Both the position numbers and the translations under genes were made by a program. Shown here one piece after another: positions 6,573-59,286 of a DNA stretch of 64,000 nt. The stretch lies in contig NZ_CP133267.1 of NCBI RefSeq assembly GCF_030915465.1, positions 1,054,001 through 1,118,000 on the forward strand, written 5' to 3'. Source of the stretch: Neobacillus sp. PS3-34. Its GTDB lineage: Bacteria > Bacillota > Bacilli > Bacillales > Cytobacillaceae. The notes beneath the pieces are model-generated. The model was not told the origin of the DNA. It worked only from the letters and a program-made list of their open reading frames with translations, and searched no databases. Positions within the stretch are counted from its first letter, which is position 1. The number at the start of each line of letters is the position of its first letter.

Positions 6573-6878
6573 GAACAAAAGGCGCAAGCGCCCTGGTTAG
6601 CCCCGACAGGCATAAGACGAATCACGCAGTCATCCTCGGAAAAGCTATCGCTTTTCCTTCGTGCGATGCGGATGCTGCCGATGTTTTCCTTGTCCTGATT
6701 TCTGGAGTGATTTGGCTTATGACCCCGAGCTGCTCCAAGCATCACCTAAAGGTCATGCTTGGAGCAAGATATTCAATGGAGCTATTCAAAGGTGAAAACT
6801 GGCTGGGTGCAAAAGCTAGATTAATACAACTTGTAGAAGTTATTCACATCATTTAATTTTATAATTTCCGAGACGAAA
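6573..6878 (+). repeat. 306-bp dispersed repeat, copy A
   Basis: A 306-bp block that reappears at 58981-59286 without a single gap at roughly 90% identity. It contains three predicted stems: GGCG-caag-CGCC (6581-6592), GGAAAAGC-tatc-GCTTTTCC (6638-6657) and GCTCCAAGCAT/ATGCTTGGAGC (6732-6765). No conserved ORF spans it. It fills the gap between the M3 peptidase and mhqR; the rest of that gap (6379-6572) shows nothing recognisable. Confidence 0.9.
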
Positions 6879-6903
6879 AAAAATACGGCATTCGCCGTAT
6901 TTA
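6874..6903 (-). terminator. terminator of mhqR
   Basis: On the minus strand ATACGGC-gaat-GCCGTAT is followed by TTTTTTT, overlapping the stop codon of the mhqR-like gene. Confidence 0.85.
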
Positions 6904-7350
6904 AAATTTACCTGCAGGGATTCCAAGTTTTTTTAATAATTCAATCGCTTCCGCTTTTTCATGTTCATCTAAACTGGACATCAGCTTATGGATCTGTATT
7001 TCATGGTCTGGAAATATTCTTTGAATAAACTGTTTTCCCTCTTCAGAAATTTGTGCGTAAGTGACCCTCCGGTCTTTAGGGCAGGCAATCCTGTTCAGCA
7101 TTCCTTTTTGTTCTAGCTTATCGACAACATATGTAATGCTGCCACTTGCCAATAGAATTTTGCTTCCTATCTGCTGCATTGGCTGGTCGCCTTTATGGTA
7201 CAGCAGCTCTAAAACGGCAAATTCTGTAGGGTTAACGCCATTTTCCTGAATGTACTTATTAACATGTTCATTAATGGCTTTATAGGCTCTTGATAGGACT
7301 ATATACAACTTTAATGATTGTGAAACTGCTTCTTTTTCCATTTTAATCAA
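6901..7350 (-). CDS. mhqR: MarR-family regulator, MhqR/YkvE-like
   Basis: 149 aa, winged-helix MarR fold. The segment NPTEFAVLELLYHKGDQPMQ is the start of the wHTH and LASGSITYVVDKLEQKG the recognition helix, then the beta wing with PKDRRVTYAQ. This wording closely matches B. subtilis MhqR (YkvE), the repressor of quinone- and diamide-responsive genes. As in B. subtilis it is divergent from kinD. Known MhqR senses electrophiles; inducer specificity here is inferred. Its promoter carries a candidate operator, suggesting autoregulation. Confidence 0.8.
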   Translation of the reverse strand: MIKMEKEAVSQSLKLYIVLSRAYKAINEHVNKYIQENGVNPTEFAVLELLYHKGDQPMQQIGSKILLASGSITYVVDKLEQKGMLNRIACPKDRRVTYAQISEEGKQFIQRIFPDHEIQIHKLMSSLDEHEKAEAIELLKKLGIPAGKF

Positions 7351-7367
7351 TCCCTTTAGTTTCTGAA

Positions 7368-7415
7368 ATATCTCGGATTCAAAATTATTATATGAAATTG
7401 TATACCTACTGTCAA
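7368..7415 (-). promoter_or_regulatory. sigma-A promoter of mhqR with overlapping candidate operator
   Basis: On the minus strand TTGACA (7415-7410) and TATAAT (7392-7387) are exactly 17 bp apart: a perfect consensus promoter. Just downstream lies ATATCTCGGATTCAAAATTAT (minus-strand sense reversed), whose TATCTCGgATTC half resembles the MhqR palindrome as I remember it; the second half is degenerate. The promoter is strong evidence, the operator assignment moderate. Confidence 0.65.
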
Positions 7416-7516
7416 TTTACCCTTTGCCAGAATGAATTTTCCACGATTACTAAAATAAGTTATACCTTAAATGATATAATGAATGAAAATCATTTCTACT
7501 AAGAGGAACCGATATA

Positions 7517-9013
7517 ATGGAAGCATTTAAGAAAAACCTTTTTCTTTATATTGCCATAGTTCTTGTGCCTGTAATAACTGGAGGAATTTACTTTTATCAC
7601 TTCCTGGTAAAAGAAGACTTTAATAATCGAAAGGCGCATGCAGAGTGGGTCGCTTCGATTCATCAAAAAAGTTGGAATAAATTTATTGGACAGACAGTGA
7701 CTAGTCTTAAGATTGTTTCGCTATCCGCCGAAATGAATATCAAAAATCCTGAAAAATTAGAGCCTCTACTCAGGCAGGTCCAGCAAAAGGATCCGCGCTA
7801 TGGAGGACTATATTTATTGGATAAACGCGGAATTGAACTGATAGGTTCCAATCCTTTAATCGAAGAAAATCATTTTTCAAAATTAGCTTATATTCAAGAG
7901 ACTATTAAAGCGAAAGATACCATTATTTCCGACAAAGGAGAGATCCTTACCAATCACCAGCGGATAATTGGCCTTGCAGTGCCTGTAATGGATTCTGACA
8001 GTAAGTTAACAGGCATACTGGTTGCCCATCTAAGAATTGATTATTTTAAAAATTTGATGAAAATCATTACCCCGAATGAAAACCTGCTTATCGTAAATGG
8101 CCACCTTTCGCCAATATTAAAAATAAATTTAAAAGGGACAAGCGACTTAAATAAAAATAATTCAGTGTCAACGCCTATAAATCAATTACCATGGAGCATT
8201 AAAGTTCAGCTACCCAAACGCAATGAGAAGGAAATAGGGAAAAAACTAAGCTTAGATTTGTTTTACCTACTAATTATCAGTCATATTTTTTATTTGTTAA
8301 TCCAGTACATGCTGCTTAAGAGGAAGGCTAAAAGAGAAAGACTGCAATATGAAGCACAAAAACTTGAGCTCGTCGGCACCTTCGCAGCAAGTACAGCACA
8401 TGAGATCCGTAATCCATTAACAGGTATTAAAGGGCTAATTCAGCTTTTAAGTGAGAAGTACAAAGAACCTGAGGATAAATATTATTTTGAAGTGATTGAA
8501 ACCGAGCTTCAAAGAATTAATGAAATCGCCAGCGAATTTTTGATCCTTGGAAAGCCTACTGCTGAAAAGACTGAGAAAGTAAATATTGCTGATATCATCA
8601 AGGAATTGAAACCTCTGATTATCTCAGAAGGTAACATCTACAATGTCCAATGCTACTGGGAAATCACAACAAATGCTGTTCAAGTGAGAGGAATTAAAGA
8701 CCATATAAAGCAAGCAATATTAAACCTTGCCAAAAATGCGTTTGAATCAATGAATGGTGGTGGTAATTTAACCATCCGCCTTTACATTGATGAAAATAAA
8801 TGCAAAATAGAAATTATTGATACAGGAATAGGGATATCCAAAAAAGAGTTAGAAAAGATCTTCCATCCATTTTACACTTCAAAGAATACGGGTACTGGTT
8901 TGGGTCTCGTGATTTGTAAGCGCATCATACAGTCAATGGGTGGGTCAATTGATATAAAGAGCCAAACCTCCATCGGAACAACCGTTAATATCAGCCTTCC
9001 CCTCTCTAAATAA
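7517..9013 (+). CDS. kinD: KinD-like sporulation sensor histidine kinase
   Basis: 498 aa. An N-terminal membrane helix (about residues 8-29) is followed by an extracytoplasmic Cache-type sensor region, a second helix near 246-265, then HisKA with the phosphorylated His in STAHEIRNPLTG (about residue 295) and HATPase_c with N box NLAKNAFES, DTGIGIS and GTGLGL. The transmembrane-Cache-transmembrane-kinase order and the wording around the His match KinD of B. subtilis, which phosphorylates Spo0F, and the neighbour mhqR is the same as there. The ligand of the sensor domain is unknown. AGAGGAACC precedes the ATG. Confidence 0.85.
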   Translation: MEAFKKNLFLYIAIVLVPVITGGIYFYHFLVKEDFNNRKAHAEWVASIHQKSWNKFIGQTVTSLKIVSLSAEMNIKNPEKLEPLLRQVQQKDPRYGGLYLLDKRGIELIGSNPLIEENHFSKLAYIQETIKAKDTIISDKGEILTNHQRIIGLAVPVMDSDSKLTGILVAHLRIDYFKNLMKIITPNENLLIVNGHLSPILKINLKGTSDLNKNNSVSTPINQLPWSIKVQLPKRNEKEIGKKLSLDLFYLLIISHIFYLLIQYMLLKRKAKRERLQYEAQKLELVGTFAASTAHEIRNPLTGIKGLIQLLSEKYKEPEDKYYFEVIETELQRINEIASEFLILGKPTAEKTEKVNIADIIKELKPLIISEGNIYNVQCYWEITTNAVQVRGIKDHIKQAILNLAKNAFESMNGGGNLTIRLYIDENKCKIEIIDTGIGISKKELEKIFHPFYTSKNTGTGLGLVICKRIIQSMGGSIDIKSQTSIGTTVNISLPLSK

Positions 9014-9018
9014 TCGTT

Positions 9019-9064
9019 TTAAAAAGCTTGTACCCAGACGTCAAACTGGATACAAGCTTTTTTT
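9019..9064. terminator. bidirectional terminator between kinD and the phosphotransferase gene
   Basis: A long stem AAAAAGCTTGTAcCCAG / CTGGaTACAAGCTTTTTT lies between two convergent genes, with T-runs in both directions. Confidence 0.9.
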
Positions 9065-10058
9065 ACGATAATTCAACTATCGGCTTATTTAGGAGAATTC
9101 TTGTCCTGATTTCCTCAATCATTTTTTGCAGCCTTTCGTTTCTTTTTTCAGGCGGGATTTTCTTTAACAAAACGGAATAAATTGTTACATCCCTAAGCCT
9201 AAAAAAGAGCGGAATATGTTCCATTAAATTTTTCGGCACGTCATTGTGCTGCTGATACCCCTCTAGGAAATGTTTAAGAAAAGCTGATGAAAATTGCTCT
9301 TTCTCTGCCACTTCCGAATCTGGCCATCCATATAAAAGAGAATAATAAAGAGGAATCGCAATATCCGATGCAAACCAATGGTAAGCGCAGTCATCAAAAT
9401 CAAAAACATGAACGATTTCTCCATCGAAAAAGAAATTCCCTGTATGGAGATCTGTATGTAGCAATCCAAAATTATCCTGATTACATGGAAGGGAGTGAAG
9501 TTCAGCCAACAGCTGTTTGGTATTTTGAATCACAGTCTCATTGGAATCATATTTTTCAATTTCCAAAAGTTCTTCTTCGTGCCATGAAGGGCGGCGTACC
9601 ACTTTATTCCCTGGCTGGTATTCCTTTGTTAAAGCATGCATCTTCCCAATCGCTTTTCCCCATGCACGAAAAAGGTGCTCATTGAATTCCTCCGAACGCA
9701 CCTTCACGGCATGCCCAGGGACCTTAGAGTATAAACATGCATAAAACTCAGAACCATCCTCAGCTGCTAATGATTCAACGAGAAGGCTTCGAGAGGATTT
9801 ATAGGCTATTGGACATTCTACCCCATGTTTATTAAGATAGTTCATCCAATCAAGCTCAGATATAATATCCTCTTCTTTCCGGTGTGAGCTGTGCGTTACC
9901 CTAAGGATCAATGGTTCTCCCCCACGATATACTTCATATACGTAATTTTCGAAATCTCCAAGTTTTTTAAAATCTGAAGATAACGTGAATTTCCCTATAA
10001 AATCACTTAATATTTCTGGTTTAAATAATACTTCTACTGTAGTTTCCAATTTTTTCAC
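9063..10058 (-). CDS. aminoglycoside phosphotransferase-fold kinase (APH family)
   Basis: 331 aa with the APH/choline-kinase fold: the Brenner-type catalytic loop LLHTDLHTGNFFF (catalytic Asp) and the metal-binding DFDDCAYHWF segment. It starts with GTG at 10058, preceded by AAAGGATAAAG. The fold covers small-molecule kinases such as homoserine kinase II and fructosamine-type kinases, and this one is not specific enough to name a substrate. It stands alone. Antibiotic modification is possible but not supported by anything beyond the fold. Confidence 0.75.
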   Translation of the reverse strand: MKKLETTVEVLFKPEILSDFIGKFTLSSDFKKLGDFENYVYEVYRGGEPLILRVTHSSHRKEEDIISELDWMNYLNKHGVECPIAYKSSRSLLVESLAAEDGSEFYACLYSKVPGHAVKVRSEEFNEHLFRAWGKAIGKMHALTKEYQPGNKVVRRPSWHEEELLEIEKYDSNETVIQNTKQLLAELHSLPCNQDNFGLLHTDLHTGNFFFDGEIVHVFDFDDCAYHWFASDIAIPLYYSLLYGWPDSEVAEKEQFSSAFLKHFLEGYQQHNDVPKNLMEHIPLFFRLRDVTIYSVLLKKIPPEKRNERLQKMIEEIRTRILLNKPIVELS

Positions 10059-10149
10059 CTTTATCCTTTTAAATAAGATCGTTGTGGTATTGTCTATTAC
10101 CTTTTAAAATTATAATTTAAATATTATGAATTAAGCAAAATATATTGAA

Positions 10150-10177
10150 CAAAAAAAGAATGACATATGCCATCCTC
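10150..10177 (-). terminator. likely terminator of the hemerythrin gene
   Basis: On the minus strand a short stem around GATGGCATATGTCATTC is followed by TTTTTTT directly after the stop codon. The stem is imperfect. Confidence 0.55.
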
Positions 10178-10704
10178 TACTTGATTTCCTGTATTCTTCT
10201 GAAAAGCTCGGCCTTTTCTTCTTCCGAAAGCATCCTTTCAGCCATCGGGAATAAAACATTTTCTTCTTTTGAGAAATGTTCAGTCAAGATAAAATAAGCA
10301 TTCTTTATGAAACCAGCCAGCTCCTTTATTTTTTGCTCTGATATTTCATCCTTTGCCGATGTTTGTTCAATAAAAGTCCCAATTAATTTTTTTGCCTGGT
10401 CATGCTCATACTCCATTACAGCAATAGGGCCAGAGGTGGTTCCAATATATGTTCCCATCATCGGAAATAATACTCCCTCTTCACGTTCAGAATGAGGACC
10501 AAGCTCTGCCATAAACTCGGAAACCTTTTCTTTTAATCTATTGAAAGGATTCTCAGCTTGATATTCAGTTTCAATCTGCTTAACTAGAGAAAATATGCCC
10601 TCCAATTTATCAAGTAAGGAAGGATGTTCATTTTTCAATTGGTTTAACCCTACAGACAGTTTGCCTGAAACCAATCCACCAAATCCACTCATACAGCCGC
10701 TCAT
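10177..10704 (-). CDS. hemerythrin HHE domain protein
   Basis: 175 aa with a four-helix hemerythrin fold: KNEHPSLL, GPHSEREEGVLFP, EYEHDQAKKL and LTEHFSKEENVLFP supply the His and Glu di-iron ligands. The head MSGCMSG carries two Cys residues. Such proteins sense or buffer oxygen and nitric oxide or help repair iron-sulphur clusters; it lacks the N-terminal domain of full RIC/ScdA proteins. An FNR/Crp-like palindrome lies about 62 bp upstream, in keeping with control by oxygen limitation or NO. The precise role is inferred. Confidence 0.85.
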   Translation of the reverse strand: MSGCMSGFGGLVSGKLSVGLNQLKNEHPSLLDKLEGIFSLVKQIETEYQAENPFNRLKEKVSEFMAELGPHSEREEGVLFPMMGTYIGTTSGPIAVMEYEHDQAKKLIGTFIEQTSAKDEISEQKIKELAGFIKNAYFILTEHFSKEENVLFPMAERMLSEEEKAELFRRIQEIK

Positions 10705-10765
10705 TTAAAATGCTCCTCTCAAATCAATTTATACCAACAGTATAGCTAACACCATTATAAAAAGT

Positions 10766-10781
10766 TGTGACCCTAGTCACT
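10766..10781 (-). promoter_or_regulatory. FNR/Crp-like operator upstream of the hemerythrin gene
   Basis: TGTGA-CCCTAG-TCACT matches the half-sites of the FNR/Crp consensus TGTGA-N6-TCACA with one mismatch. It sits in the 232-bp gap between the hemerythrin gene and the divergent gene at 10937, so it could act on either. Confidence 0.5.
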
Positions 10782-10936
10782 TTATTTCCTTTCAAGCTTG
10801 AAAGCAGCTTTTTGGACATGAATTATTCACAATTAATGGAAACGCTTTTATTTTTCATAAAATTTTAACATTTTAATCACAATATTATGGAAAATCCACA
10901 TATAATATAGTTAAAAGCTATTAGGGAGGGCTATAA

Positions 10937-11288
10937 ATGTACAATCCTCATTATCGGGATTTTTATCAGAAACCATTAATTCCAATCGGCTTGAAAGACA
11001 AGCTGGCGCTTATGGAAGCTGAATTTGCTCCTCCGGCTGCAGCACGTTCCACTCACTGGCTCATCGCCTTCAGAAGGCCAGCCTGCATCTCCTGGCGAAG
11101 AGTATTTCCATTGGAAGGTCAGCATTTATCCTTCTGATTCAGATGGATCCTTCTCCTGGAATCAACCCTACTATTCTTCACCGCATCTTGATTGCTTCAA
11201 TAAAGCGATAGATGTGGCAAAATCATTTGAAAATTACAGCCGGAATGATGAGATAACCTCTTCAGGTATACAAGAGAAAATAAGCTAA
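10937..11288 (+). CDS. hypothetical protein (frame broken)
   Basis: The start is firm: GGGAGGG then ATG, giving MYNPHYRDFYQKPLIPIG. The first frame stops at 11137, but an overlapping frame continues as SEGQPASPGEEYFHWKVSIY and ends at 11288. Removing one base between about 11060 and 11085 would give one protein of about 116 aa. I do not recognise the family; the sequence is rich in Pro, Tyr and Ser and has no signal peptide. The FNR-like box upstream might also serve it. The break is probably a sequence error. Confidence 0.55.
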
Positions 11289-11420
11289 TCCCCTTTCTTT
11301 ATTCCCCCTGCTTCACCCTTTCTTTTTACAACTCCTTGTGAAAAACCTTACATATAGTGTTAATATCGACATTTCTCTCCAAAATCTACGATTATAAAAA
11401 TATACATATATAAATAAATA

Positions 11421-11473
11421 AGACTGTTCCAAAAAAGCCGAATCAATCCGGCTATTTGGACCAGTCTCTTTTA
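11421..11473. terminator. bidirectional terminator, convergent genes
   Basis: The stem GACTG.TCCAAA..AGCCG pairs with CGGCT.TTTGGA.CAGTC around a short loop (AATCAAT), followed by CTCTTTTATTT. It separates the hypothetical gene from fixX. Confidence 0.8.
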
Positions 11474-11505
11474 TTTGGAAAATATCTTATTTATTACTTT
11501 TCCTG

Positions 11506-11790
11506 TTACGCCATCCGGAAGACAATACCATGGCCGCCTTTTGGATATTCCCATTTTATATTCTGATAAGGACAGCCAATCCTGCAGCTGCCGCATTCAT
11601 GGCAGCCTTCATATCCGACCTGCATGCGCTTCCCTTCCCACTTGTATACTTCTGCCGGACAAAAGACCGTACAAATCTTGTCAGGGCACTGTGTCATGCA
11701 CACATCATGATCCAACACAGTCAGATGGGACTTCGTGTCACACTTAAACCTAAGCAAATACTGTTTTTCCTCGATGTTTTTTGTCGACAT
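11506..11790 (-). CDS. fixX: FixX ferredoxin-like protein
   Basis: 94 aa ferredoxin with two cysteine clusters: CMTQCPDKICTVFCP and CHECGSCRIGCP. Only the second has the full CxxCxxC spacing; this pattern is typical of FixX, which passes electrons to or from the FixC flavoprotein and quinone. It is the last gene of fixABCX, starting at 11790 directly after the fixC stop codon (11791). The bidirectional terminator follows. Confidence 0.9.
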   Translation of the reverse strand: MSTKNIEEKQYLLRFKCDTKSHLTVLDHDVCMTQCPDKICTVFCPAEVYKWEGKRMQVGYEGCHECGSCRIGCPYQNIKWEYPKGGHGIVFRMA

Positions 11791-13082
11791 TTATTTCACC
11801 GCCTTCCATGCACGATACATATCTTGGATCACACGGATAGTGCCTCTTTCTGCAGTGATGCTCTTCATGATTTCTTTTTGCTTATCGCGTTTAGGGGTGC
11901 CATCAACCGTAAAGAATTTACTCATGGCCTTATTCATTATCGGTACATATTCTTTAAAGTACTGAGGGTATTTTTCAAACGTATGTGCCGCATCTTTGTA
12001 TTTCTCGAGATCTTTTATTATAAAGCTGTTGTATAGTGCTTCTCGGTAACTGTTAAGGCCCGATTCACTAAAATCATTGCTGTTCTTGGCTCTAATAACA
12101 GCTTCTGCAGCCATTTTCCCTGATGACATGGCCATATTTGAGCCTTCACGGTGTATGGCATTGACTAGTTGGGCAGCATCTCCTATCACCAATACTCCAT
12201 TGCCTGCCACCTTAGGGACAGAACGGAAGCCTCCCTCAGGTATGAGGTGGGCAAGATATTCGGCTGATTCTCCGCCCTGAAGCATCGACTTCAGCATAGG
12301 ATGATTTTTTAAATAATCCAGAAGGTCATAAGGCTTCAATTTCGCCTTTATCATGCTGGACAGGGTGGTTCCTACACCAATGTTGAGGCTGTCTTTATTT
12401 GTATAAAGAAATGCTGTTCCCAAATTCCCCTTTGTAGAGTCACCGAAAATTTCTATTGTCGTGCCCTGGTTATCTTCTAGGTTAAAGCGGTCATTAATCT
12501 TCTCTTTCGGCATATTGATTACTTCCATTACCGTAAGGGCGACTTCATCCGGCCTGAATTCCTTATGGAAACCAAGCTGCTTGGATAGCAGGGAGTTGAC
12601 ACCATCAGCAAGAACCACTACATCCGCATATACCTCACCATCAGGACGGTCTGTACGCACTCCGATAACCTTACCGTTTTCGACGATACATTCCATTACT
12701 ACTGTTTCGTTGATTAATAATGCACCAGCTTCTACTGCCTTTTGTGCAAACCATTGATCAAACTGAGCCCGTAAAACAGTAAAATTGTTATAAGGCTCCA
12801 TTCCCCATTCCAAGCCCTTATATCCGAAGGAAACTACAGACTCTTTATCCATCATCCAAAAGCGCTGCTCGATTACTGGCCTTTCAAGAGGTGCTTCTTT
12901 CCAAAATTCAGGAATCAGCTCCTCTAACTGTTTTCGGTATAAAACACCTCCCATCACGTTTTTGCTTCCAGGGTATTCTCCTCTTTCAATCAGCAAAACC
13001 TTAAGCCCGCTCTTGCTGATACAAGAGCGCAAGCTGATCCGGCCGCTGCCCCGACTACGATCACATCAAATTTTTCAGGCAT
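11791..13082 (-). CDS. fixC: FixC, electron-transfer flavoprotein:quinone oxidoreductase (frame broken near start)
   Basis: An ETF-QO/FixC flavoprotein of about 430 aa that links the FixAB flavoprotein to the quinone pool. From the ATG at 13082 the frame reads MPEKFDVIVVGAAAGSACAL, then shifts at about 13010-13030 into ISKSGLKVLLIERGEYPGSK and on to a normal C-terminus with GDAAQLVNAIHREG. The FAD glycine motif reads GAAAGS rather than the usual GxGPAGS, so one residue may also be missing there. The start overlaps the etfA stop by 8 nt, showing translational coupling. I read the anomalies as sequence errors in a GC-rich stretch. Confidence 0.85.
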
Positions 13083-14105
13083 AGCTGAATTCACCGCCTT
13101 TTTCATTACTGACTAGTTTAAATTGCTCAATAAGTTTAGGGATAATTTCCATGGCGTCCCCGACAATTCCATAAGTGGCTACGTCAAAAATGGGCGCATT
13201 TGGATCTTTATTAATAGCAATGATGAATTCTGAGTTTTTCATTCCGACGATATGCTGAATGGCTCCTGACAAAGCAACAGCGAAATAAATTTTTGGAGTA
13301 ACCGTCTCGCCCGTCTGGCCAATTTGAAGATGATGGGGAAGCCACCCAGCCTCAACTACATCCCTTGTTCCTCCTACGCTTGCACCGATCGTTTCAGCGA
13401 GCTCATATAAAATCTGAAAATTTTGGATGTCTCCCATGCCTTTACCACCGCAAATAATCACATGGGCATCCGCAAGGCTCGCTTTTTTTGTTACGTCCTT
13501 CACAATTTGAAGTACTTTTGTTCGCATATCCTCTTCAGAAAGCGATATCGTTTCTTCAATAATTTTTCCTTTTCTTCCTTCATCCGGCTCAAGAGCTTTC
13601 ATTACCTTCGGCCTGACGGTCGCCATTTGCGGCGGTGTTTTTTACAAAGAATGGTCGCCATAATATTTCCCCCAAATGCAGGGCGGCTGGCTTCCAGCAA
13701 TCGATTATCTGCGTCAACATCCAACATGGTTGTATCTGCTGTCAGTCCCGTATTTAAGTCAGTCGCAACTGCACTGGCCAAATCCTTTCCATTCGGTGTC
13801 GCTCCATATAGAAAAATTTCTGGCTTGTACTTCTCAGCAAGAAGTATTACGCATTTCATATAGGATTCTGTCCGATAATCTTTCAATACGGAATGATCTA
13901 TGACATATACTTCATCAGCACCGCTTGCAATCACTTGATTACATAAAGGTTTAACACCTTCCCCCAGCAACACACCTGCCAGCGGAACATTTAATTTTTC
14001 AGCGAGCTTACGGCCAGCCCCCAGCAGTTCAAGGGAAACACCCTCGATCACTCCTTCATTCTGCTCTATGAATACCCAGACTCCCTGGTATTCCTCCAGT
14101 TTCAT
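13075..14105 (-). CDS. fixB: FixB / electron transfer flavoprotein alpha subunit (frame broken)
   Basis: ETF alpha subunit of about 343 aa. It starts at ATG 14105 (MKLEEYQGVWVFIEQ) with GAGGAGG just upstream, not at the TTG further out. The frame breaks at about 13628-13636; adding one C gives ILCKKHRPQMATVRPKV. The C-terminal FAD domain has the ETF-alpha signature GGTRDVVEAGW..HLQIGQTG and AINKDPNAPIFDVATYGIVGD. It pairs with FixA and, with FixCX, performs flavin-based electron bifurcation in characterised systems. Confidence 0.92.
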
Positions 14106-14141
14106 TGGAACTCCTCCTCGCAACAGCTTTTCTTTTGTTTA

Positions 14142-14965
14142 TTAGTTTGAAGATTGTAGAGTGAACAGCTCTTTTTTCTCCATTAATAGCTCTATCAACT
14201 GATTAACCTGCTGGTCTGCAGAACCTTCAAGCCTTTTACCGCCTTCGGGTTTGGGTGGAGAAAACATTTTCCCTACAATGGTCGGTGAACCCTTCAAGCC
14301 TAACTGTGCCCGATCTACATTTTCCAGGTCACTCACTGCCCAAATTGCAGGTTCATACCGAGCCGCTTTTATCATGTTTGTAAGCGGTGAATAGTCGATT
14401 TCATTTATTTCTTTTTCAACGGTCAGCAAACATGGCAGTTCAGCCTGTATCAATTCATATCCGTTGGTTAATTTCCTTTTTATTAGTACGGTTCTTTCAC
14501 TCCTGTTAATTTCTGTTATTTCTATTACATTCGTTATTGGCGGAATATCCATCCTTCTAGCAATCCCAGGACCTACCTGTCCAGTATCACCATCAATGGC
14601 ATGCTTGCCGCATATCACCATATCAACCGGGATTTCCTTGTTGATTCTCTCAAGTGCTTTTGAAAGAGCATAACTGGTTGCAAGTGTGTCAGCACCTGCA
14701 AAAGCTCGGTCAGAAATTAAATATCCCCTGTCAGCTCCGATTTCAATACTTTTCTTTATTACTGCGGTCGCCTGGGCGTGCCCATTGATAGAACGGAAAT
14801 AGTGCCGCCTGTCAGTTCTTTAATTTTAACTGCCGCCTGGACTGCATGGCCGTCATATGGATTTAATATGGCAGGTGCGCTGCGGCGGTCGAGTGTGTTT
14901 GTCTTGGGATTAATTTTAATAATTTTTGTATCAGGAACTTGTTTGACACATACCACAATATGCAT
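14142..14965 (-). CDS. fixA: FixA / electron transfer flavoprotein beta subunit (frame broken)
   Basis: ETF beta subunit, about 274 aa, first gene of the operon. It starts at ATG 14965 (MHIVVCVKQVPDTKIIKINP) with GAGGAGGG 10 nt upstream. The frame ends at ...SMGTPRRPQ; one extra C at about 14775 gives SMGTPQATAVIKK and rejoins ADRGYLISDRAFAGADTLAT, the AMP/FAD-binding ETF-beta signature, then CGKHAIDGDTGQVGPGIA. The presence of all four fix genes in order argues for a bifurcating complex and not a simple beta-oxidation ETF. Confidence 0.92.
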
Positions 14966-15378: not shown

Positions 15379-15568
15379 AGTTGATTGGAGCGGAAGGTGC
15401 AGCTCCTCGAAAATGCTCTCGCATTTCCTTCGTGCGATGTTGATTCTAGGAAGATGATTCAACGTCCTGCGGGAGCAGCGGGACAGGTGAGACCCCACAG
15501 GCGCTATGCGCCGAGGAGGCTCACCGCCCGCCCCGCGGAAAGCGAGCATCCTGTAGTGGAGATCAACT
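15379..15568. repeat. 190-bp structured Bacillaceae-type repeat
   Basis: Bounded by AGTTGAT (15379-15385) and ATCAACT (15562-15568), which pair. Inside are GGCGC-tat-GCGCC (15501-15513 region) and phrases such as GACAGGTGAGACCCC and GAGGAGGCTCACCG that I recall from a high-copy GC-rich intergenic repeat of many Bacillaceae genomes. Positions 15404-15447 contain a hairpin plus TTTCCTTCGTGCGATG that is also found in the 306-bp repeat, so this copy is composite. Its GC content is far above its surroundings. ORFs through it are shadows. Confidence 0.8.
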
Positions 15569-15605
15569 ACTCCTTAAATAGCAACAAAGTATTCGAAAAC
15601 AGCCA

Positions 15606-20562: not shown

Positions 20563-20716
20563 AAACCCCTTCAGAAAGAAGAGGTTAGCATCACAAAACT
20601 AACATCTTCTCATCTATCAGCTTTACGCTGCAAGAATTAGCACCGTGCTTAACTTTTGGTTAAGTCGGTTGCCGGGCTTCGTAGGGCTAGTCCCTCCACC
20701 TGCTCTTGATAAGAAA
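20563..20716 (-). promoter_or_regulatory. SAM (S-box) riboswitch of mtnWXBD
   Basis: Read on the minus strand: CTTATCAAGAG, then GGTGGAGGGACTAGCCC, GAAGCCCGGCAACC and a GCACGGTGCTAATTC segment, which are the conserved S-box blocks. They are followed by a terminator stem around GTTAG..CTAAC and GAAGGGGTTTTTTT just before the mtnW ribosome binding site. It should terminate transcription when S-adenosylmethionine is plentiful. A TATAAT lies upstream near 20727-20732 with a weak -35. Confidence 0.96.
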
Positions 20717-22978: not shown

Positions 22979-23192
22979 CTCTTATCATGAGCTGGCTGAG
23001 GGATCTGGCCCTTTGAAGCCCAGCAACCGACTGTAATGCCATTGTGAAATGGGGCGCATTCTGCGCCGGGACAATATCCCTTTAAGGCACGGTGCTAATT
23101 CCAACAGAAAGATTATTTTTCTGAGAGATAAGAGGTGAGAAGAATGTGTTTTCTTCCAGCCTCTTTCAGAATAAGAAAGAGGCTTTTTTGCT
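22979..23192 (+). promoter_or_regulatory. SAM (S-box) riboswitch of mtnK
   Basis: CTTATCATGAG at 22981, GAGGGATCTGGCCC, GAAGCCCAGCAACC and GCACGGTGCTAATTCC are the S-box blocks. A terminator GCCTCTTTC / GAAAGAGGC followed by TTTTTT (23159-23189) completes the switch. The P3 arm carries a longer GGCGCATTCTGCGCC hairpin than the other copy. Confidence 0.96.
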
Positions 23193-51615: not shown

Positions 51616-51618
51616 AAT

Positions 51619-51654: not shown

Positions 51655-51742
51655 ATGTCCAGATTCAGACGAGGTGAATTTCTACATGAACAAGCAAAAA
51701 TAACGTACAATAATCTTTAACGATACCATTGGAGGTTAACAG

Positions 51743-52254
51743 ATGGAAGCAAAAACATGCAATGAATCAAGAGTAATAAGAACAAGCAGAATTTTCCCGA
51801 ATGACGTTAATAACCATAATACCCTTTTTGGAGGGAAGCTCATGAGCGACATGGATATGGTTGCATCCATTTCGGCTACAAGGCATTCCCGGACGGAATG
51901 TGTGACTGCGTCAACCGATTCCGTCGATTTCCTCATCCCGATCACACCAGAAAATTCAGTCTGCTTTGAATCCTTTGTTACATATACAGGTTCCAGCTCA
52001 ATGGAGGTTTTTGTTAAGATTATTGCCGAAAGCCTGCTGAATAGTGATAGAAAAATTGCTGCAACCGCCTTTTTCACCTTCGTCGCATTGGATGAAAACG
52101 GGAAACCAACTAAAGTACCCGGCGTAATTCCTGAAACCGAAGAAGAAAAAAGCTTCATGAAACCGGTAAGGAAAGAGCTGAGGTCCGCAAAGAACACCGG
52201 AAACATAGTAAAGAACTTGCGGGGTATTTTACAACAAAAAAACCGTGGGAATAA
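51743..52254 (+). CDS. acyl-CoA thioesterase, hot-dog fold (frame broken near the end)
   Basis: About 170 aa. HNTLFGGKLMSDMDMVASIS is the hot-dog acyl-CoA hydrolase signature seen in the YkhA/BACH group. The open frame runs on to 52372, through a terminator and into the antisense of malL, which is implausible. One added base at about 52180 gives RKEHRKHSKELAGYFTTKKP and a stop at 52252-52254 right before the terminator, matching family length. GGAGG precedes the ATG by about 10 nt. Confidence 0.85.
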
Positions 52255-52292
52255 AACAAAACAGCGGCCTCTCAAGTCGCCGCTGTTTTATT
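52255..52292. terminator. bidirectional terminator, thioesterase and malL
   Basis: The stem AAAACAGCGGC / GCCGCTGTTTT with a 10-nt loop has T-runs on both sides. Confidence 0.9.
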
Positions 52293-53973
52293 ATTTTTCA
52301 AATAAGAATACTTGTGCTTCGTATGGCTTAAGTTCAAAGTTATCAAATGTATCACTTGCATGCCATTCATAATTCCCTAGCAGTCGGTTATATGGTAACT
52401 GCTTCAATCCAGCCGGTACTTCAAACGAAGGGGTTCCACCGTAGAAATTACAAACCGTTAATAATGTTTGTCCATTGTATTCCCTTGTATAGGCGAAAAT
52501 TTCAGGATGGTTCTCATTTAAAAGCTGATACTTCCCATAAACAATAATCTCATGGTCCTTTCTCAGCTTAATAAGGTTTCGGTAGTAATGATAAACTGAA
52601 TCCTGATTTTCCAAAGCATTCTTAACATTAATTTCTTTATAATTGGGATTGACCTTTATCCAAGGAGTTCCCTCTGTAAAGCCTCCATGATCTGAATCAT
52701 CCCATTGCATTGGAGTTCGTGCATTATCGCGGCCTTTAACATAAATGCTTCGCATGATATTTTCAACCGGAACATTTTCAGCTATCTTTTCCTTATAAAA
52801 ATTCAGCGTCTCAATATCCCTGTAATCATCAATTGTTGCAAACGGAACATTCGTCATCCCAATTTCTTCACCCTGATAAACATACGGAGTCCCTTTCATC
52901 ATATGAATGATGGTTGCAAGCATTTTTGCAGATTGAACCCGATACTCCTGATCATTTCCAAATCTTGATACAACCCGGGGCTGGTCATGGTTACAGAAAT
53001 AGAGGCTGTTCCACCCAACCGTTTCAAGCGCTTCCTGCCATTTGGTCAGGTTTCTTTTTAAATCGACTAAATCCAACGGTTTAAGATTCCATTTTCCTCC
53101 AGGCCCACTATCCAAGTCTACATGCTCGAATTGAAAGAGCATATTGACTTCTTTTCGGTCACTGTCGGTATATAATCGTGCTGTCTCTGGATTTGATCCA
53201 GGCATTTCTCCTACAGACATGATGTCATATTTTGATAAAACCTCTTTGTTCATTTCCTGAAGGAACTCGTGAATACGAGGCCCGTTCATAAAATGGCTGC
53301 TGCCATCACCATATTTATTTCCAGGGCTGATCTCCCCATCCGGCAAGCCTTCTTCCTTGGAAATAAAATTTATGACGTCCATCCGGAAACCGTCAATACC
53401 TTTATCAAGCCACCATTTCATCATGTCATAAACTTCAGTTCTCAGTTTTGGATTTTCCCAATTCAAATCAGGCTGTTTCTGTGAAAAGATATGTAAAAAG
53501 TATTCATCGGTCGTTTCATCATATTTCCAAGCAGAACCACTGAAAAACGAACCCCAATTATTTGGTTCCTTGCCGTCTTTTCCGGGCCGCCAAATATAAT
53601 AATCCCTGTATGGGTTATCCTTTGATTTCCGTGATTCCATAAACCAGGCATGTTCATCTGAGCTGTGGTTTACAACCAGATCCATAATCATCTTCATACC
53701 GCGTTTATGTATTCCGTCAAGCAGCTCTTCCCAATCCGACATATTACCAAAATCACTCATAATATCCTGATAATCGCTTATATCATAACCATTATCATCG
53801 TTTGGGGACTTATAGACAGGTGAAAGCCATATAACGTCTATTCCTAATCCTTGTAAATAGTCCAGCCGCGAGATAATCCCTTTTAAATCGCCGATACCAT
53901 CTCCATTGCTATCCATAAAGCTCCGAGGATAAATTTGATAGACAACGCTTTCTTTCCACCATTGCTTGTTCAT
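52291..53973 (-). CDS. malL: GH13 alpha-glucosidase (oligo-1,6-glucosidase/MalL type)
   Basis: 560 aa cytoplasmic glucosidase cleaving short alpha-glucosides. Catalytic nucleophile Asp in GIDGFRMDVINF, acid/base Glu in SVGEMPG and the third Asp in CNHDQPR; the N-terminal WWKESVVYQIYPRSF and VVNHSSDEH are MalL/oligo-1,6-glucosidase hallmarks. Linkage preference is not decided by what I can see. It lies 1.6 kb from the sugar ABC genes, on the same strand but with two genes between. Confidence 0.92.
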   Translation of the reverse strand: MNKQWWKESVVYQIYPRSFMDSNGDGIGDLKGIISRLDYLQGLGIDVIWLSPVYKSPNDDNGYDISDYQDIMSDFGNMSDWEELLDGIHKRGMKMIMDLVVNHSSDEHAWFMESRKSKDNPYRDYYIWRPGKDGKEPNNWGSFFSGSAWKYDETTDEYFLHIFSQKQPDLNWENPKLRTEVYDMMKWWLDKGIDGFRMDVINFISKEEGLPDGEISPGNKYGDGSSHFMNGPRIHEFLQEMNKEVLSKYDIMSVGEMPGSNPETARLYTDSDRKEVNMLFQFEHVDLDSGPGGKWNLKPLDLVDLKRNLTKWQEALETVGWNSLYFCNHDQPRVVSRFGNDQEYRVQSAKMLATIIHMMKGTPYVYQGEEIGMTNVPFATIDDYRDIETLNFYKEKIAENVPVENIMRSIYVKGRDNARTPMQWDDSDHGGFTEGTPWIKVNPNYKEINVKNALENQDSVYHYYRNLIKLRKDHEIIVYGKYQLLNENHPEIFAYTREYNGQTLLTVCNFYGGTPSFEVPAGLKQLPYNRLLGNYEWHASDTFDNFELKPYEAQVFLFEK

Positions 53974-54215
53974 GCACTTTCCTCCTAGTTGAAGATTCTA
54001 TGTATAAACATACCTTCTTTTTAAAAAGAAGAAAAGCAATATCTTTAATATCCACCCTTGTATAAAGAAAGGAAGGTTTCTTAATCAAAAGAGAGGAATT
54101 CAAGGCATAAAAGTTTAAATAGAAAAAATAGTGGAATGTTATTTAAATAAGCTTTTTTACCGGGACACTGAGAAATAAAGTATTTAAAAGTATTTAAAAA
54201 AGGAGGAGTGATGAA

Positions 54216-54641
54216 ATGATTGGATTCAAAAAATCCACGTTGGAAAAAGAACAGCAAAAATATGAATTAAAAGCAAAAGAATATATGGATAATCCTAAAA
54301 AAACGGAGGGATTATTAAAAAAAGCACTTGCAAAAGCAAACAATAAAAAAGGAGCATTGGGTGATGCTTGGGACAAGCTTCAGCTCCTGATTCAGCTAAT
54401 TACGGCGTGGGCAAAAGGCGATTACCGCAGTGTTTCAACAAGTACGATATTAACGGTCATTGGGGCAGTTGTTTATTTCGTATCGCCAATTGACTTCGTT
54501 CCCGATTTCCTAGCCGGTCTTGGATTTTTTGATGATGCAGCTGTGATTGGTTTTACACTTAAGAAAATTTCAGGTGACCTCGATAAATTCAAAGAATGGA
54601 GAGAGTCAAGTGTTATCCATGCAAAAAACCCCCTTGACTAA
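54216..54641 (+). CDS. YkvA-like DUF1232 protein
   Basis: 141 aa. An N-terminal basic, charged helix region is followed by the DUF1232 core VYFVSPIDFVPDFLAGLGFF and DDAAVIGF, with membrane-interacting hydrophobic helices. Function unknown. AAGGAGGAG precedes the ATG by 7 nt. In B. subtilis a ykvA gene lies in the mtn-kinD interval, so this one has been relocated, or is a paralogue. Confidence 0.85.
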   Translation: MIGFKKSTLEKEQQKYELKAKEYMDNPKKTEGLLKKALAKANNKKGALGDAWDKLQLLIQLITAWAKGDYRSVSTSTILTVIGAVVYFVSPIDFVPDFLAGLGFFDDAAVIGFTLKKISGDLDKFKEWRESSVIHAKNPLD

Positions 54642-54663
54642 ATATTCAAGAGGGCTTTTTTTA
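54622..54663. terminator. terminator, ykvA-like and cell wall hydrolase genes
   Basis: Stem AAAAAACCC..TTG / CAA..GGGCTTTTTTT between the convergent stops. Confidence 0.75.
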
Positions 54664-55338
54664 TAGTGTAAAGCGGTGGTTACCGATGTCCTTTATTTCC
54701 GGCCTAGAATACAGCCAGCTGTGTTTGATTTTATGAGGGTTAAAAAAGAACAGAGCTTTAGTCACCTTGCCATCCTTTGCTATTGCCTCATCTACCGCTT
54801 TTTTTGCTTCCTCGCCTGCCGGCTTATTAATCATGCCATTTTCTACCGGTTCGAATTGATTTTTCTGGTAGATAACCTGTTCAACCGTATCAGGGAATTT
54901 ATCACTTTCAACCCGATTTAATACAACTGCCGCGACGGCAACTTTTCCTTCATAAGGCTCACCTTTTGCCTCGGCATGAACGAGCCTTGCTAAAAGTTCT
55001 TTTTCCTTCGGCGTGATTTGTAATATATCCTTCTGACTGGTCTTTTGTGGTTTAGCTTTCTTACTGGCCGTTTGCGGTTTATCCTTTGGAACGTCAGCAT
55101 CAGGAATGATGATTTTATCGCCCGTGTTTATTTTCTCATCACCATCGTCATTTAATTGCTTTAAGTCCTTTTGCGGAACACCATATTTTACGGCTAAACG
55201 ATCAACCGTTTCGCCTTCTTTAACTACATGAATTTTAGTTGATTCAAGTGTCTGGGCATGTTTGCGGGCTTCCTGACCAGGTACGGCAAGCTGGAATAAA
55301 AAAGCTGCAGCCACAAGAAAAAAGGCTATTCTTTTCAT
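54661..55338 (-). CDS. LysM and SleB-type cell wall hydrolase, YkvT-like
   Basis: 225 aa, exported. A signal peptide (cleaved near VPGQEA) is followed by a LysM domain (HVVKEGETVDRLAVKYGVP, residues about 37-85), a Lys/Gln/Pro linker, and a SleB/CwlJ hydrolase domain with LLARLVHAEAKGEPYEGKVA (catalytic-type Glu) and QFEPVENG. Relatives degrade spore cortex or cell wall. LysM binds peptidoglycan. Layout agrees with YkvT of B. subtilis. Confidence 0.88.
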   Translation of the reverse strand: MKRIAFFLVAAAFLFQLAVPGQEARKHAQTLESTKIHVVKEGETVDRLAVKYGVPQKDLKQLNDDGDEKINTGDKIIIPDADVPKDKPQTASKKAKPQKTSQKDILQITPKEKELLARLVHAEAKGEPYEGKVAVAAVVLNRVESDKFPDTVEQVIYQKNQFEPVENGMINKPAGEEAKKAVDEAIAKDGKVTKALFFFNPHKIKHSWLYSRPEIKDIGNHRFTL

Positions 55339-55608
55339 TCGTCTTCCTCCCTTATCCGGAAAGCTTAAGCGCCTTGCTCAGCTTTCGAAATTTTCAATGT
55401 GCATCTAATTCCATATTATTTCAATCGGAATATTAATGAATTTGTATCGCCTCTATTACCCTAACATGGATTCCACAAAGACTCCACACTCAAAAACTTA
55501 CCAAGGAAATAGAGGAAAACTAAACCAATTAATAGCCCCTTCCTTAAAAAGCGCATTTATAAAAGCCCGTTTTGCCCGGACTATAATGCAAGTTCCGCTA
55601 AAAATGGT

Positions 55609-56478
55609 TCAGCCTTTTGTACCAGAAGAGATATTTGATCCTTCGATAAAGTATCGCTGGAAGAAGAAGAAAATCAATACAATTGGCAACAATACCATTA
55701 CAGACATAGCCATTAAATAATGCCATTGAGTCTGTACAGTTCCTTTAAATGTCTGCAATCCAATTTGTAGTGTATAAAGCTTTTCATCATTTATATAGAG
55801 CAAAGGTCCAAGCAAGTCATTCCATGCTCCATTAAATGAAAAAATAGCGACTGTAATCAAGGCAGGTTTCGTCAATGGGACCATGATGTGCCACCAAATT
55901 TGTAAATGATTCGCCCCGTCCAATACAGCGGCTTCCATTAATTCATTGGGTATTGTCATCATGAACTGTCTAAGTAAAAAGATAAAAAATGCGCTGCCGA
56001 AAAATGCAGGGACAACCAACGGAAGATAAGTGTTTACCCAGCCGAGTTTTGAAAACAATATATATTGAGGGACCATCGTAACGAACCCCGGAATCAACAT
56101 GGTCGATAAAACAATGGTGAATAGTGCGTTTCTGCCCTTAAATCTTATTTTTGCAAAAGCATAGGCTACAATGGAATTAACAAAAACACTGCCGATTGTC
56201 CCGCAGGCTGCAATAAATAAAGTATTCAATGCCCAACGGGTAAAAGGAGCAGTTTTCCAGGCCTCCATGTAGTTAGAAAAATGGAAATGTTTCGGGAAAA
56301 AGGACGGTGGAAACTGTGCGATTTCCTCTGGTGACTTTAATGACGTCGAAATCATCCACCATAAGGGAGAAAGAATAATACAGCTTCCAGCGAGCAATAG
56401 AAATGTTATGAACAGGCTCTTTGCTCTCCCTTTTAATTTTCTGTTTTCATAAAATTTAGGTGAAACATATTGGGTCAT
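55609..56478 (-). CDS. carbohydrate ABC transporter permease (MalG/CUT1 type)
   Basis: 289 aa with six predicted helices and the EAA loop ELMEAAVLDGANHLQIWWHI. Third gene of the operon; its start overlaps the preceding permease stop by 4 nt. No ATPase gene is near, so it probably uses a shared MsmX-type ATPase. Substrate unknown. Confidence 0.93.
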   Translation of the reverse strand: MTQYVSPKFYENRKLKGRAKSLFITFLLLAGSCIILSPLWWMISTSLKSPEEIAQFPPSFFPKHFHFSNYMEAWKTAPFTRWALNTLFIAACGTIGSVFVNSIVAYAFAKIRFKGRNALFTIVLSTMLIPGFVTMVPQYILFSKLGWVNTYLPLVVPAFFGSAFFIFLLRQFMMTIPNELMEAAVLDGANHLQIWWHIMVPLTKPALITVAIFSFNGAWNDLLGPLLYINDEKLYTLQIGLQTFKGTVQTQWHYLMAMSVMVLLPIVLIFFFFQRYFIEGSNISSGTKG

Positions 56479-57458
56479 TTATTGTCTCCTCCCTCATAGT
56501 GAACCCAGCGCTTTCCAACCTTCATATTGAGGACTGTCAATACCATGACAACAATAAATAAAAGCCAGGCCATTGCTGAGGCATACCCCATATCAAACAA
56601 TTTAAACGCATTATTCCACATATGAAGATTATAAAAAAGTAGCGAATTTGACGGACCTCCGCTTCCGTTTTCTGTCATAACGTAGGCCTCCTGAAAGATC
56701 TGGAAGGAGCCAATCGTACTTGTTACAACATCGAAAAATATGACGGGAGAAATCATTGGCAGGGTAATATGGAAAAATTTTTGGAAAGCAGTTGCCCCTT
56801 CCATTTCTGCCGCCTCATACATCTGAGGAGAAACCCCCTGCAGGCTTGCCAGGTATAAAAGCATGCCTCCTCCGACACTCCACATTTTCATAAGCAAAAG
56901 CGCAGGTTTCGTCCACTGTGGATCAAAAAGCCAGGCAGGTCCCTCAATACCAAACCAGCCCAGAAAGGTATTTACCAAGCCGGTCGATGGGCTAAGCATT
57001 TGCATCCAAAGAAAATATACCGCCACACCCGATAAAATTGCAGGTAAATAATAAATTGTTCTAAACAGCTTCATCCCAAATACCTTTTGGTTTAAAAGCA
57101 CGGCAAGCAACACTGCACCAGCTGTTGTAAGCGGAACTGAAAATATTACATAATACAAGGTATTCCATAAAGAGGTCCAAAACAATTTGTCAATCTTAAA
57201 CATGCGGGTAAAATTATCGAAGCCAATAAAATTCATAGTAGAAGTAATATTATAGTCCGTGAAACTGGCAGCGAGAGAAAAAAGAAGCGGTCCTAGTGTA
57301 AGTCCAAGAAAGCCAATTATCCATGGGCTAATAAATAAATATCCCCAAATGTTTTCTCTAGTTTGCCTGGAGATCTTTTTCCGGACTTTCATAGTTTCAG
57401 CGCCAGTACTTTCAATAAACTTATCTTCTAATACATTTGTTGATGTTGAAGATTTCAT
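56475..57458 (-). CDS. carbohydrate ABC transporter permease (MalF/UgpA type)
   Basis: 327 aa with an extended N-terminus, six helices and the EAA loop MYEAAEMEGATAFQKFFHIT. Second gene, 77 nt after the binding-protein gene. With the MalG-type partner it forms the membrane channel. ATG 57458 follows GGAGAAAAGGGG. Confidence 0.93.
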   Translation of the reverse strand: MKSSTSTNVLEDKFIESTGAETMKVRKKISRQTRENIWGYLFISPWIIGFLGLTLGPLLFSLAASFTDYNITSTMNFIGFDNFTRMFKIDKLFWTSLWNTLYYVIFSVPLTTAGAVLLAVLLNQKVFGMKLFRTIYYLPAILSGVAVYFLWMQMLSPSTGLVNTFLGWFGIEGPAWLFDPQWTKPALLLMKMWSVGGGMLLYLASLQGVSPQMYEAAEMEGATAFQKFFHITLPMISPVIFFDVVTSTIGSFQIFQEAYVMTENGSGGPSNSLLFYNLHMWNNAFKLFDMGYASAMAWLLFIVVMVLTVLNMKVGKRWVHYEGGDNK

Positions 57459-57535
57459 ATCCCCTTTTCTCCTTTCCCGGCAAAGTAATTTTTAAATCAA
57501 GCAAAGAGAGAAGGCAGCCCTTCTCTCTTCAAAAA

Positions 57536-58829
57536 CTATTTTTTCATTTTTTCTACGTCGGTTTCAGCTTGTTTCAGAGCCTTTTTAGGTGAAATTTTTC
57601 CCAGCATGACATTATCAATATAAGGATTAATTTGGTTTTGGTAATCAGGATACTCGACAGGTGTTGGATACATATTTGTTACTTTTAAATTATCAACCGT
57701 CATTTTGTAAACCTCCTGTGCTTGTCCAGTCAGTTCTTTAGCCGCAGCTTCTGCACCCTTCTTGTTTGCGACATTGTCATAATTTTTCAATGCCCAATAC
57801 TTTTGTGCTTTTTCACCTGTCAGATATTTAATGAACGCCATAGCTTCTTTAGGATGCTTTGACCCTTTTGGAACCTCCGCAACGAAGCCGCCGCCGTCGC
57901 TCCAATGCTTGCTGCCTTCTTTATAAGCAGGAATCGGAACAGCACCAAACTCCATATTTTTTCCGTAATCACGGATTTGTGTATAGAATGTACCTACATC
58001 CATCCACATCGCGACCTTGCCTGCAATAAATGGATTTGCCTGCTGGCTGCCGAAGTCAGCCTGAAACGTCTGAACATTTTTTTCTCCTAGTCTCTTTTTC
58101 CAGCCCAACAGCCATTCGAGAGCTTTCGCTTTTTGCGGCGTGTTAATAGCGAGCTTTCCATTATCATCAATATAACCTCTTCCACCATCCGCACTTTCCA
58201 TCCAAGAATTGGCTCCTACACTTCCCCATAATGGGTAAAAACCAATTCTTTCATAACGGTCTCCATTTTTCTTATCCAGTTTCTTTGCGTATTCTTCTAG
58301 CTCCTGCCAGGTTTGAGGAGGCTTATTTGGATCTAACCCAACCTCTTTAAATGCTGCCTTATTGTAAAAAAGTAATCTTGTATCGGTGTTGAAAGGAACA
58401 GCATAAGGCTTTCCTTTGTAAAGAACGGTATCCCAAAGCTGAGAATAAAATTGATTTTCAAAAGACTTATCAACATATTTGCTTAAATCTTCTGCCTGAT
58501 TATTTTTTGCCCGTTGTGAAACAGTATTAATATCATTAATAATGACATCCGCTGGATTTCCCGCTGCCACAGATGCTAAATTCTTTGTCCAAATGTCACC
58601 CCAGGGGAGAAAGGTATGTTTTACAACAATTTTATCCTGTGAATTGTTAAAATCCTTAACAATCTTTTCAATAATAGGTGCGTGTTTCCGAACCCCAAAA
58701 GGACCAGAAATTAACCACTACTTTGCCATTCTCAGTTTTTGCGGCCGCCTTGTCTTCCTTAGATGAACAACCGGCAAGCATTCCTAGTAGAAGAAACAAT
58801 GAAATAAATAATAAAAATCCCTTTTTCAT
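57536..58829 (-). CDS. sugar-binding lipoprotein of CUT1 ABC transporter (frame broken)
   Basis: About 430 aa extracellular solute-binding protein. It starts at ATG 58829 (MKKGFLLFISLFLLLGMLAG) after AGGAGG, with lipobox LAGC near residue 21. The frame is lost near 58685-58687; one base too many is present, and without it the protein reads FWSFWGSEHAPIIEKIVKDF and continues into NPADVIINDINTVSQR. First gene of the sugar operon; its lipid anchor holds it on the outer membrane face. The C-terminus ISPKKALKQAETDVEKMKK is typical of the family. Confidence 0.92.
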
Positions 58830-58980
58830 GATAGCCTCCTGATTGGTATGTATGTAAAAAACTATAACTCTCTTTTAGTACCCAATGTTTTGACATTTAA
58901 ACAGCTTATATGACAAACTTTTTAAATTGGTTTCGTCATAATGCCCTTTTTATAAAAATAAGGTAAAATTTATTTAAACA

Positions 58981-59286
58981 GAACAAAAGGCGTAAGCGCC
59001 CTGGTTAGCCCCGGCTACCTTAATACGAATCACGCAGTCATCCTCGGAAAATCTATCGCTTTTCCTTCGTGCGATGCAGATTCTGCCGAAGCTTTCCTTG
59101 TCCTGATTTCTGAAGTGATTTGGCTTATGACCCCGAGCTGCCCCAAACATTACCTAAAGGTCATGCTTGGGGCAAGATATTCAAGGGAGTTATTCAAAGG
59201 TGAAAACTGGCTGGGTGCTGGAGCTAGATTAATACAACTTGTAGAAGTTTTTCACATCATTTAATTTTATAATTGCCTAGACGAAA
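58981..59286 (+). repeat. 306-bp dispersed repeat, copy B
   Basis: Gapless second copy of 6573-6878 in the same orientation, offset exactly 52408 bp throughout. The third stem is GCCCCAAACAT (59140-59150) with ATGCTTGGGGC (59163-59173): the T-A pair of copy A has become C-G here. It lies between the sugar operon and the yjcZ genes. No gene is seen inside. Confidence 0.9.

Follow-up and report, generated by a model that had tools for sequence, protein, structure and literature searches.

Short structured repeats behind intrinsic terminators in Neobacillus sp. PS3-34 and its order are probably mobile elements

We analyzed a 64,000-nucleotide stretch of the Neobacillus sp. PS3-34 genome (hereafter the window; positions 1054001–1118000 of a single 4.90 Mb contig), in which a sequence-only reading had noticed a 306-bp repeat pair and proposed it as a candidate structured RNA. 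The two copies (hereafter A and B) probably belong to an order-wide set of short mobile elements that are non-autonomous and stand directly behind intrinsic terminators, in a single orientation. What we observed directly is that copies stand behind terminators in a fixed orientation, are missing from orthologous sites of relatives, form arrays, have ends that go in pairs, are modular and fold in a conserved way. The pair itself is real, gapless and co-oriented, as described, with 91.4% identity and zero gaps between window positions 6572–6886 and 58980–59294; the alignment covers 315 bp, and the original limits were therefore slightly short. The sense of the element proved to lie on the strand opposite to the one presented. 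In agreement with the earlier statement that the copies share no open reading frame (ORF), none was seen in the ORF lists, and for want of a common reading frame there we rejected a coding origin.

A basic copy is ~180 bp long. Read on the opposite strand, the T-run of a native terminator is followed by a left block, T1 (~56 nt), then by a core hairpin, and finally by the element's own T-run. T1 reads GTCTAGGAAATTATAAAATT..TGTGGATAACTT..AAGTT.. and the core AGCTCCAGCGCCTAGCCCCTCGAGGTCATAAGCC...CGTCTTATGCTTGTCGGGGCTGACCAAGGCGCTTGCGC, after which comes TTTTGTTC.

Placement behind terminators and element-free orthologous sites

In the home genome we called 64 left blocks, one of them false (genome position 2437856). 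A run of at least four T directly preceded 62 of the 64, compared with 233 of 2000 random positions, and a hairpin followed by a T-run, scored by a crude criterion, preceded 51, compared with 43 of 2000. Shifting the left-block positions by -150, -300 and +330 as a control gave 0, 3 and 0 of 64. Among 32 copies with T1 from other genomes (not all independent), a T-run came before 31 and a hairpin with T-run before 28. For copies without T1 (n = 94), a terminator lay within 80 nt in 33 cases and another copy, recognized by a loose pattern, stood in front in 24; one or the other was present in 52, compared with 22 of 1000 random positions.

The gene upstream was co-directional with the element in 57 of 63 copies (5 opposite, 1 open), and in these 57 cases the median distance from ORF end to T1 was 51 nt. 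The downstream neighbor was convergent in 33 of 56 copies and behind 52 of 96 ordinary terminators, as expected if insertion ignores the downstream context. In one locus (L193:693-805), a copy occupies the 23S–5S rRNA spacer and runs antisense to the rRNA.

With the origin at ~2.3–2.45 Mb and the terminus at ~4.5–4.6 Mb, both guessed from the GC skew of 20 samples, 56 of 63 copies lie on the leading strand, a share similar to that of coding bases (80.7%). No replication layout is thus visible, the copies follow gene orientation, and we rejected replication-strand targeting beyond gene direction. This near-equality also bears on the idea that the element is a dispersed DnaA-binding or chromosome-organizing site. 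T1 carries a motif that we take to be DnaA-box-like; among the 32 T1 blocks from other genomes, 26 contain TGTGNATAA, including some in which the remaining block differs. The motif is, however, mutated in copy B (TTTTTCACA), and 96 of 128 copies (a set that includes the 32 T1 blocks) have no T1. We give this candidate very little credence.

We then compared orthologous loci. Copy A lies behind a MarR-like gene, for which 25 loci were fetched and 22 compared, including that of the home genome, over the 560 nt that follow the gene. In this interval the full element was absent from all 21 relatives, and many had a hairpin and T-run there. One congener (G002) carried a T1-like remnant without a core; in another genome (G001), a diverged copy of reduced length lay farther downstream. 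When the flanks of 74 element places were compared with 0.4 Mb of G002, both flanks found a match at six loci. Five of these had a terminator at the same place with no element after it; the sixth was the copy A locus. At genome position 1002325, the terminator stem itself was nearly identical in G002. Judging from these comparisons, the terminator in front of the element is native to the upstream gene, and the element is present at some orthologous sites and absent from others, as a mobile element is.

Arrays, ends and modules

Copies also follow one another. Locus L190 holds four head-to-tail units, each beginning right after the preceding unit's GCGCTTTTC, and neighboring units occur in L201, L208 and L209. 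The two ends of the element go together: of copies with T1 (n = 32), 27 ended in TTTTGTT, none in TTTC and 5 otherwise, and of copies without T1 (n = 96), 66 ended in TTTC, 12 in TTTTGTT and 18 otherwise. Such co-variation is expected of ends that are recognized as a pair, and shared descent would give the same. We also asked whether T1 might mark one end of some longer element and rejected this, as nothing autonomous was seen among the matches listed; one diverged T1 without a core follows a terminator at genome position 4678801. In five further loci (L222, L240, L257, L267 and L275), the 3' arm is replaced by other sequence (..GTCGGACTTGCACAGGATGTGCTGACGTC and similar), and these are apparently chimeric repeats.

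The element has three module slots, with M2 (~60 bp) beside T1, M4 (~71 bp) in the 5' arm, and M2 again at the apex. We typed 63 copies of the home genome, of which 29 were basic copies with T1 and 2 carried nested M2. All eight combinations of the three slots were seen among the 61 copies scored (29, 10, 8, 4, 4, 2, 2 and 2), a variable combination like that of BOX-like modular repeats. Apical M2 was present in 20 of the 61, M4 in 18 and neither in 29; copies A and B carry both. Clonal spread of M4 and apical M2 was rejected, their presence being unlinked to similarity in T1 (420 and 499 of 500 permutations reached the observed value) or in the 3' arm (481 and 457 of 500). Basal M2 tracked T1 similarity (0 of 500 permutations) but not that of the 3' arm (103 of 500). 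Modules may be exchanged among copies through recombination or gene conversion, or may enter identical slots repeatedly.

Table 1. Window coordinates of copies A and B and adjoining features.
Feature	Position	Strand	Remarks
Copy A	6573..6875	-	left block at the 6875 side, right end at the 6573 side; alignment, genome search
T-run of the MarR-like gene's terminator	6876..6883	-	A8 on +; presumed insertion point of copy A
Terminator hairpin of the MarR-like gene	6884..6899	-	TACGGC-ATTC-GCCGTA; native, outside the element
T1 left block, copy A	6820..6875	-	
DnaA-box-like motif in T1, copy A	6840..6848	-	TGTGAATAA (TTATTCACA on +); motif name presumed
Core hairpin, base of 5' arm, copy A	6801..6819	-	
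Module M4, copy A	6730..6800	-	contains stem 3
Core hairpin, remaining 5' arm and half of apex, copy A	6694..6729	-	
Apical module M2, copy A	6630..6693	-	with TCAT; contains stem 2
Core hairpin, 3' arm and right end, copy A	6573..6629	-	ends ..GCGCCTTTTGTTC
MarR-like gene, 149 aa	6901..7350	-	upstream of copy A; label presumed from its protein
Copy B	58981..59283	-	T1 59228-59283, M4 59138-59208, apical M2 59038-59101, right end 58981-59037
Terminator preceding copy B	59284..59313	-	hairpin ACAGGGAAT..ATTCCCTGT 59293-59313, interrupted T-run 59284-59292
Glycine-rich small ORF, 46 aa	59335..59475	-	upstream of copy B's terminator
Other repeat family, ~190 bp	15379..15570	+	M2-like stretch 15404-15447

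Folding and covariation of the core

The structured-RNA proposal had rested on paired substitutions in two predicted stems. In stem 3 we recovered them as described: copy A reads GCTCCAAGCAT/ATGCTTGGAGC and copy B GCCCCAAACAT/ATGCTTGGGGC, the third pair changing from T-A to C-G, and the single mismatched stem position admitted for copy B is an A.C in this same stem. Stem 2 had been compared with the repeat at 15379 (GAAAATGC/GCATTTCC, against GGAAAAGC/GCTTTTCC in copy A); the paired change from A-T to T-A is there, and the second pair is an A.C mismatch that had gone unmentioned. Because that repeat shares just 44 bp with copies A and B, at 84% identity, we regard it as another repeat family with one module in common. 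The base changes are therefore present, but both stems sit in the optional modules M4 and M2, and the conserved structure is the core hairpin.

Covariation between two copies is thin evidence on its own, and the test across many copies that had been proposed gave a strong signal. The set comprised 63 cores hand-picked from 131 defined by blast, from many genera and none from the home genome, with reversed, truncated and near-identical sequences left out. Their RNAalifold consensus had 33 pairs, 23 of them with compensatory change. Shuffling gave 49 ± 9 cells changed on both sides, compared with 208 observed. Of all cells, 96.4% were paired, compared with 33–47% when the partner was slid; this control is biased toward the structure, which comes from the very sequences tested. 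Variation in the 5' arm is suppressed in this set, as 36 of the 63 cores were fetched by an exact pattern over that arm. Four cores that we folded individually reached -44.7 to -58.3 kcal/mol (z -3.2 to -6.9 in all four) and had in common an unpaired five-nucleotide stretch on the 3' side; TTTT follows the core hairpin.

This folding could reflect a cis-acting RNA under selection, in which the long hairpin and TTTT act as a back-up terminator or 3'-end stabilizer and old copies are kept where useful. The strength of the folding, the compensatory changes across genera, and the co-directional upstream genes would all suit such a role. So would two pairs whose consensus is G.U (in 54 and 40 of the 63 cores), which favor the sense strand a little. 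Outside these two pairs, however, single deviations comprised 18 G.U, 19 A.C and 50 others; G.U and A.C are about equally frequent, without strand bias, and an RNA role is accordingly unproven. Nor was downstream gene direction enriched, close relatives keep the orthologous terminators without the element, and optional modules split both the apex and the 5' arm. We consider the cis-acting RNA unlikely.

The structured-RNA proposal is supported in part, for its conserved folding. The covariation is explained equally well by a constraint on DNA, acting through a single strand that folds or through correction templated by the hairpin, and template-switch correction of a DNA palindrome could be its source. 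A folded single strand during mobility, the alternative that the sequence-only reading had put in brackets, fits better than an RNA gene.

Distribution, candidate machinery and meaning

A search of the home genome with copy A returned at least 100 matching pieces (40 of 147 first-look candidates were scored), and a 17-base core pattern with up to three mismatches occurred at 79 places, compared with 3 for the reversed control. Four of the 79 were judged by eye not to be the element, leaving ~75 copies as a lower bound. By blastn with a 186-bp copy from this genome (E up to 1e-8), the element was present in 105 of 151 genomes and 18 of 25 genera of the family. A covariance model built here, R1 (E up to 1e-5), detected it in 175 of the 249 genomes searched from the order, representing 75 of its 106 sampled genera, and in 3 of 299 genomes of a phylum-wide draw, all three inside the same order; both R1 surveys used stricter filters, so that weak matches were lost, and scored presence rather than copy number. 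Named records among the matches listed (at least 80 loci) came from Neobacillus, Peribacillus, Metabacillus, Litchfieldia, Siminovitchia, Sutcliffiella, Fredinandcohnia and Aquibacillus. No Rfam family reached its curated threshold at the element in the window and seven loci scanned, and sub-threshold scans of copy A and loci L180 and L254 gave weak matches only, far below threshold. We recognized no earlier description in the literature covered, which leaves out most subscription journals and may thus miss one, and the word TCTAGCTCCAGCGCC was found in no paper searched. As a short structured interspersed repeat, the element is of a known kind; its terminator rule, its arrays and its order-wide span appear to be new.

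Comparison with known repeats, for which we drew on parts of the cited papers, places it more closely. BOX, RUP and SPRITE of Streptococcus pneumoniae are likewise small, interspersed, structured, mostly behind genes and without a gene of their own; BOX has exchangeable modules and SPRITE resembles a terminator (PMC3049150). Going by these descriptions, our element differs in starting at the host terminator's T-run, in its fixed orientation and arrays, and in its range, an order as opposed to one or two species. The bcr1–bcr18 repeats of the Bacillus cereus group are also intergenic, repeated and partly structured, with bcr1–3 resembling miniature inverted-repeat transposable elements (MITEs) and about half of the copies transcribed; the terminator rule and the core hairpin are not among the features described for them in the parts consulted, and they are set apart by description alone (PMC3446304). 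REPs share with our element a palindromic, high-copy, extragenic and non-autonomous character, but at 20–40 bp, tagged GTAG or CGTC (PMC3733652), they are far shorter than its ~180 bp or more.

Three other repeats of this genome touch on the element. A second palindromic family (AGCTAATAGGAAAGTATAAACTTT..AAAGTTTATACTTTCCTATCGCGCATAAG.., loci L354–L361, near genome positions 444742, 727057, 1315765, 1323261, 1357441, 3969595, 4283531 and 4383103) has the left motif TAGGAAA.TATAAA in common with T1, at least five T in front in 7 of 8 loci, and a right-end hairpin with T-run in 6 of 8; the common motif and placement hint at common machinery. The ~190-bp family (window 15379–15570; L364 and L365) contains the M2-like stretch, and modules seem to pass between repeat families. 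Between copy A and a peptidase gene, window positions 6480–6566 hold another inverted repeat (GGCTCAGTTACGC..GCGTTTAACAGAGCC), of which G002 has a degenerate version. Elsewhere in the window, two SAM riboswitches (RF00162) lie ~2.3 kb apart on opposite strands, at 22979–23134 (+) and 20607–20715 (-).

Several observations weigh against mobility. Among T1-less copies, 42 of 94 had neither a terminator within 80 nt nor a preceding copy by our crude tests. Our comparisons were between species, and gain and loss are therefore indistinguishable at single sites. No insertion event was observed, and the element-free loci, whose comparison had been proposed as a way to define the ends and any target-site duplication, settled neither; the six between-species comparisons gave no clear duplication, at a divergence too high to exclude one. 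The 186-bp copy matched none of 72,556 plasmid or 50,697 phage records, in which hosts of the family may be few, and one 113-bp unit matched no plasmid record in the same set, an absence that a mobile element would not usually show. In the home genome, which was searched for RVT_1 and Y1 and not for integrases or other recombinases, neither a transposase nor a recombinase could be tied to the element. The core arms form inverted repeats with T1 outside them, and these two enzyme families yielded no autonomous MITE partner.

For the first of the two, a terminator-targeting reverse transcriptase might copy and insert the element as a passenger of group IIC introns, which insert in one orientation at intrinsic terminators and at attC hairpins (PMC4424553). 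The home genome has no RVT_1, although some of its copies are 95–97% alike, and the loci scanned gave no match to a group II intron family; with neither an intron RNA match nor a reverse transcriptase, we rejected membership among group II introns. Over 249 genomes, the group II maturase and the element were independent (both in 59, element only in 116, maturase only in 29, neither in 45; p 0.47, not corrected for phylogeny). Passage with group IIC introns thus appears very improbable.

Y1 transposases act at hairpin ends with fixed polarity and produce no long target duplication, so that the element's hairpin ends, its polarity and the lack of an evident long duplication would fit a REP-like element mobilized on folded single-stranded DNA by a RAYT or IS200-like enzyme. 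The home genome encodes one Y1 transposase, RAYT-like and the only one found (L352:1465-2025, near genome position 2779717). Its gene is surrounded by three copies of a GACAGGCACCTTCCAGTT-type palindrome (GGTGACAGGCACCTTCCAGTT-type at its flanks), not by the element, and a blast comparison of this locus with the element showed nothing beyond short chance matches. As the element does not flank the RAYT gene in this genome, we rejected membership in a REP-with-RAYT pair, and we regard Y1 mobilization as improbable.

Integron attC sites form long imperfect hairpins with unpaired bases on one arm and stand in head-to-tail arrays in one orientation. Our element resembles them in all of these respects; unlike integron cassettes, it has no cargo gene and is dispersed behind many terminators, and no integrase was linked to it, none having been searched for. 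The attC site is also a group IIC target (PMC4424553).

For the mobile element that we favor, copies would have moved to terminator sites through machinery that recognizes a hairpin and T-run, probably in folded single-stranded DNA. The element's right end, a long hairpin followed by TTTT, may itself be a target site, and an inserted copy would then become a new target, so that arrays form. Taken further, intrinsic terminators might be recombination sites, at which chromosomal machinery across a bacterial order adds units head to tail like integron cassettes, the hairpin and T-run folded in single-stranded DNA being both the target and the right end of the element; this extension is possible but doubtful.

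If the element is mobile, most sampled genera of the order (75/106) carry an unnamed element that lands at terminators without breaking genes, and terminator-targeting mobility would have a second form in addition to group IIC introns. The element would shape the 3' ends and intergenic regions of many Bacillus-like genomes. A search for its enzyme would be practical, thanks to the arrays, the modules and the two types of end. Annotators would gain a covariance model for a family without an Rfam entry.

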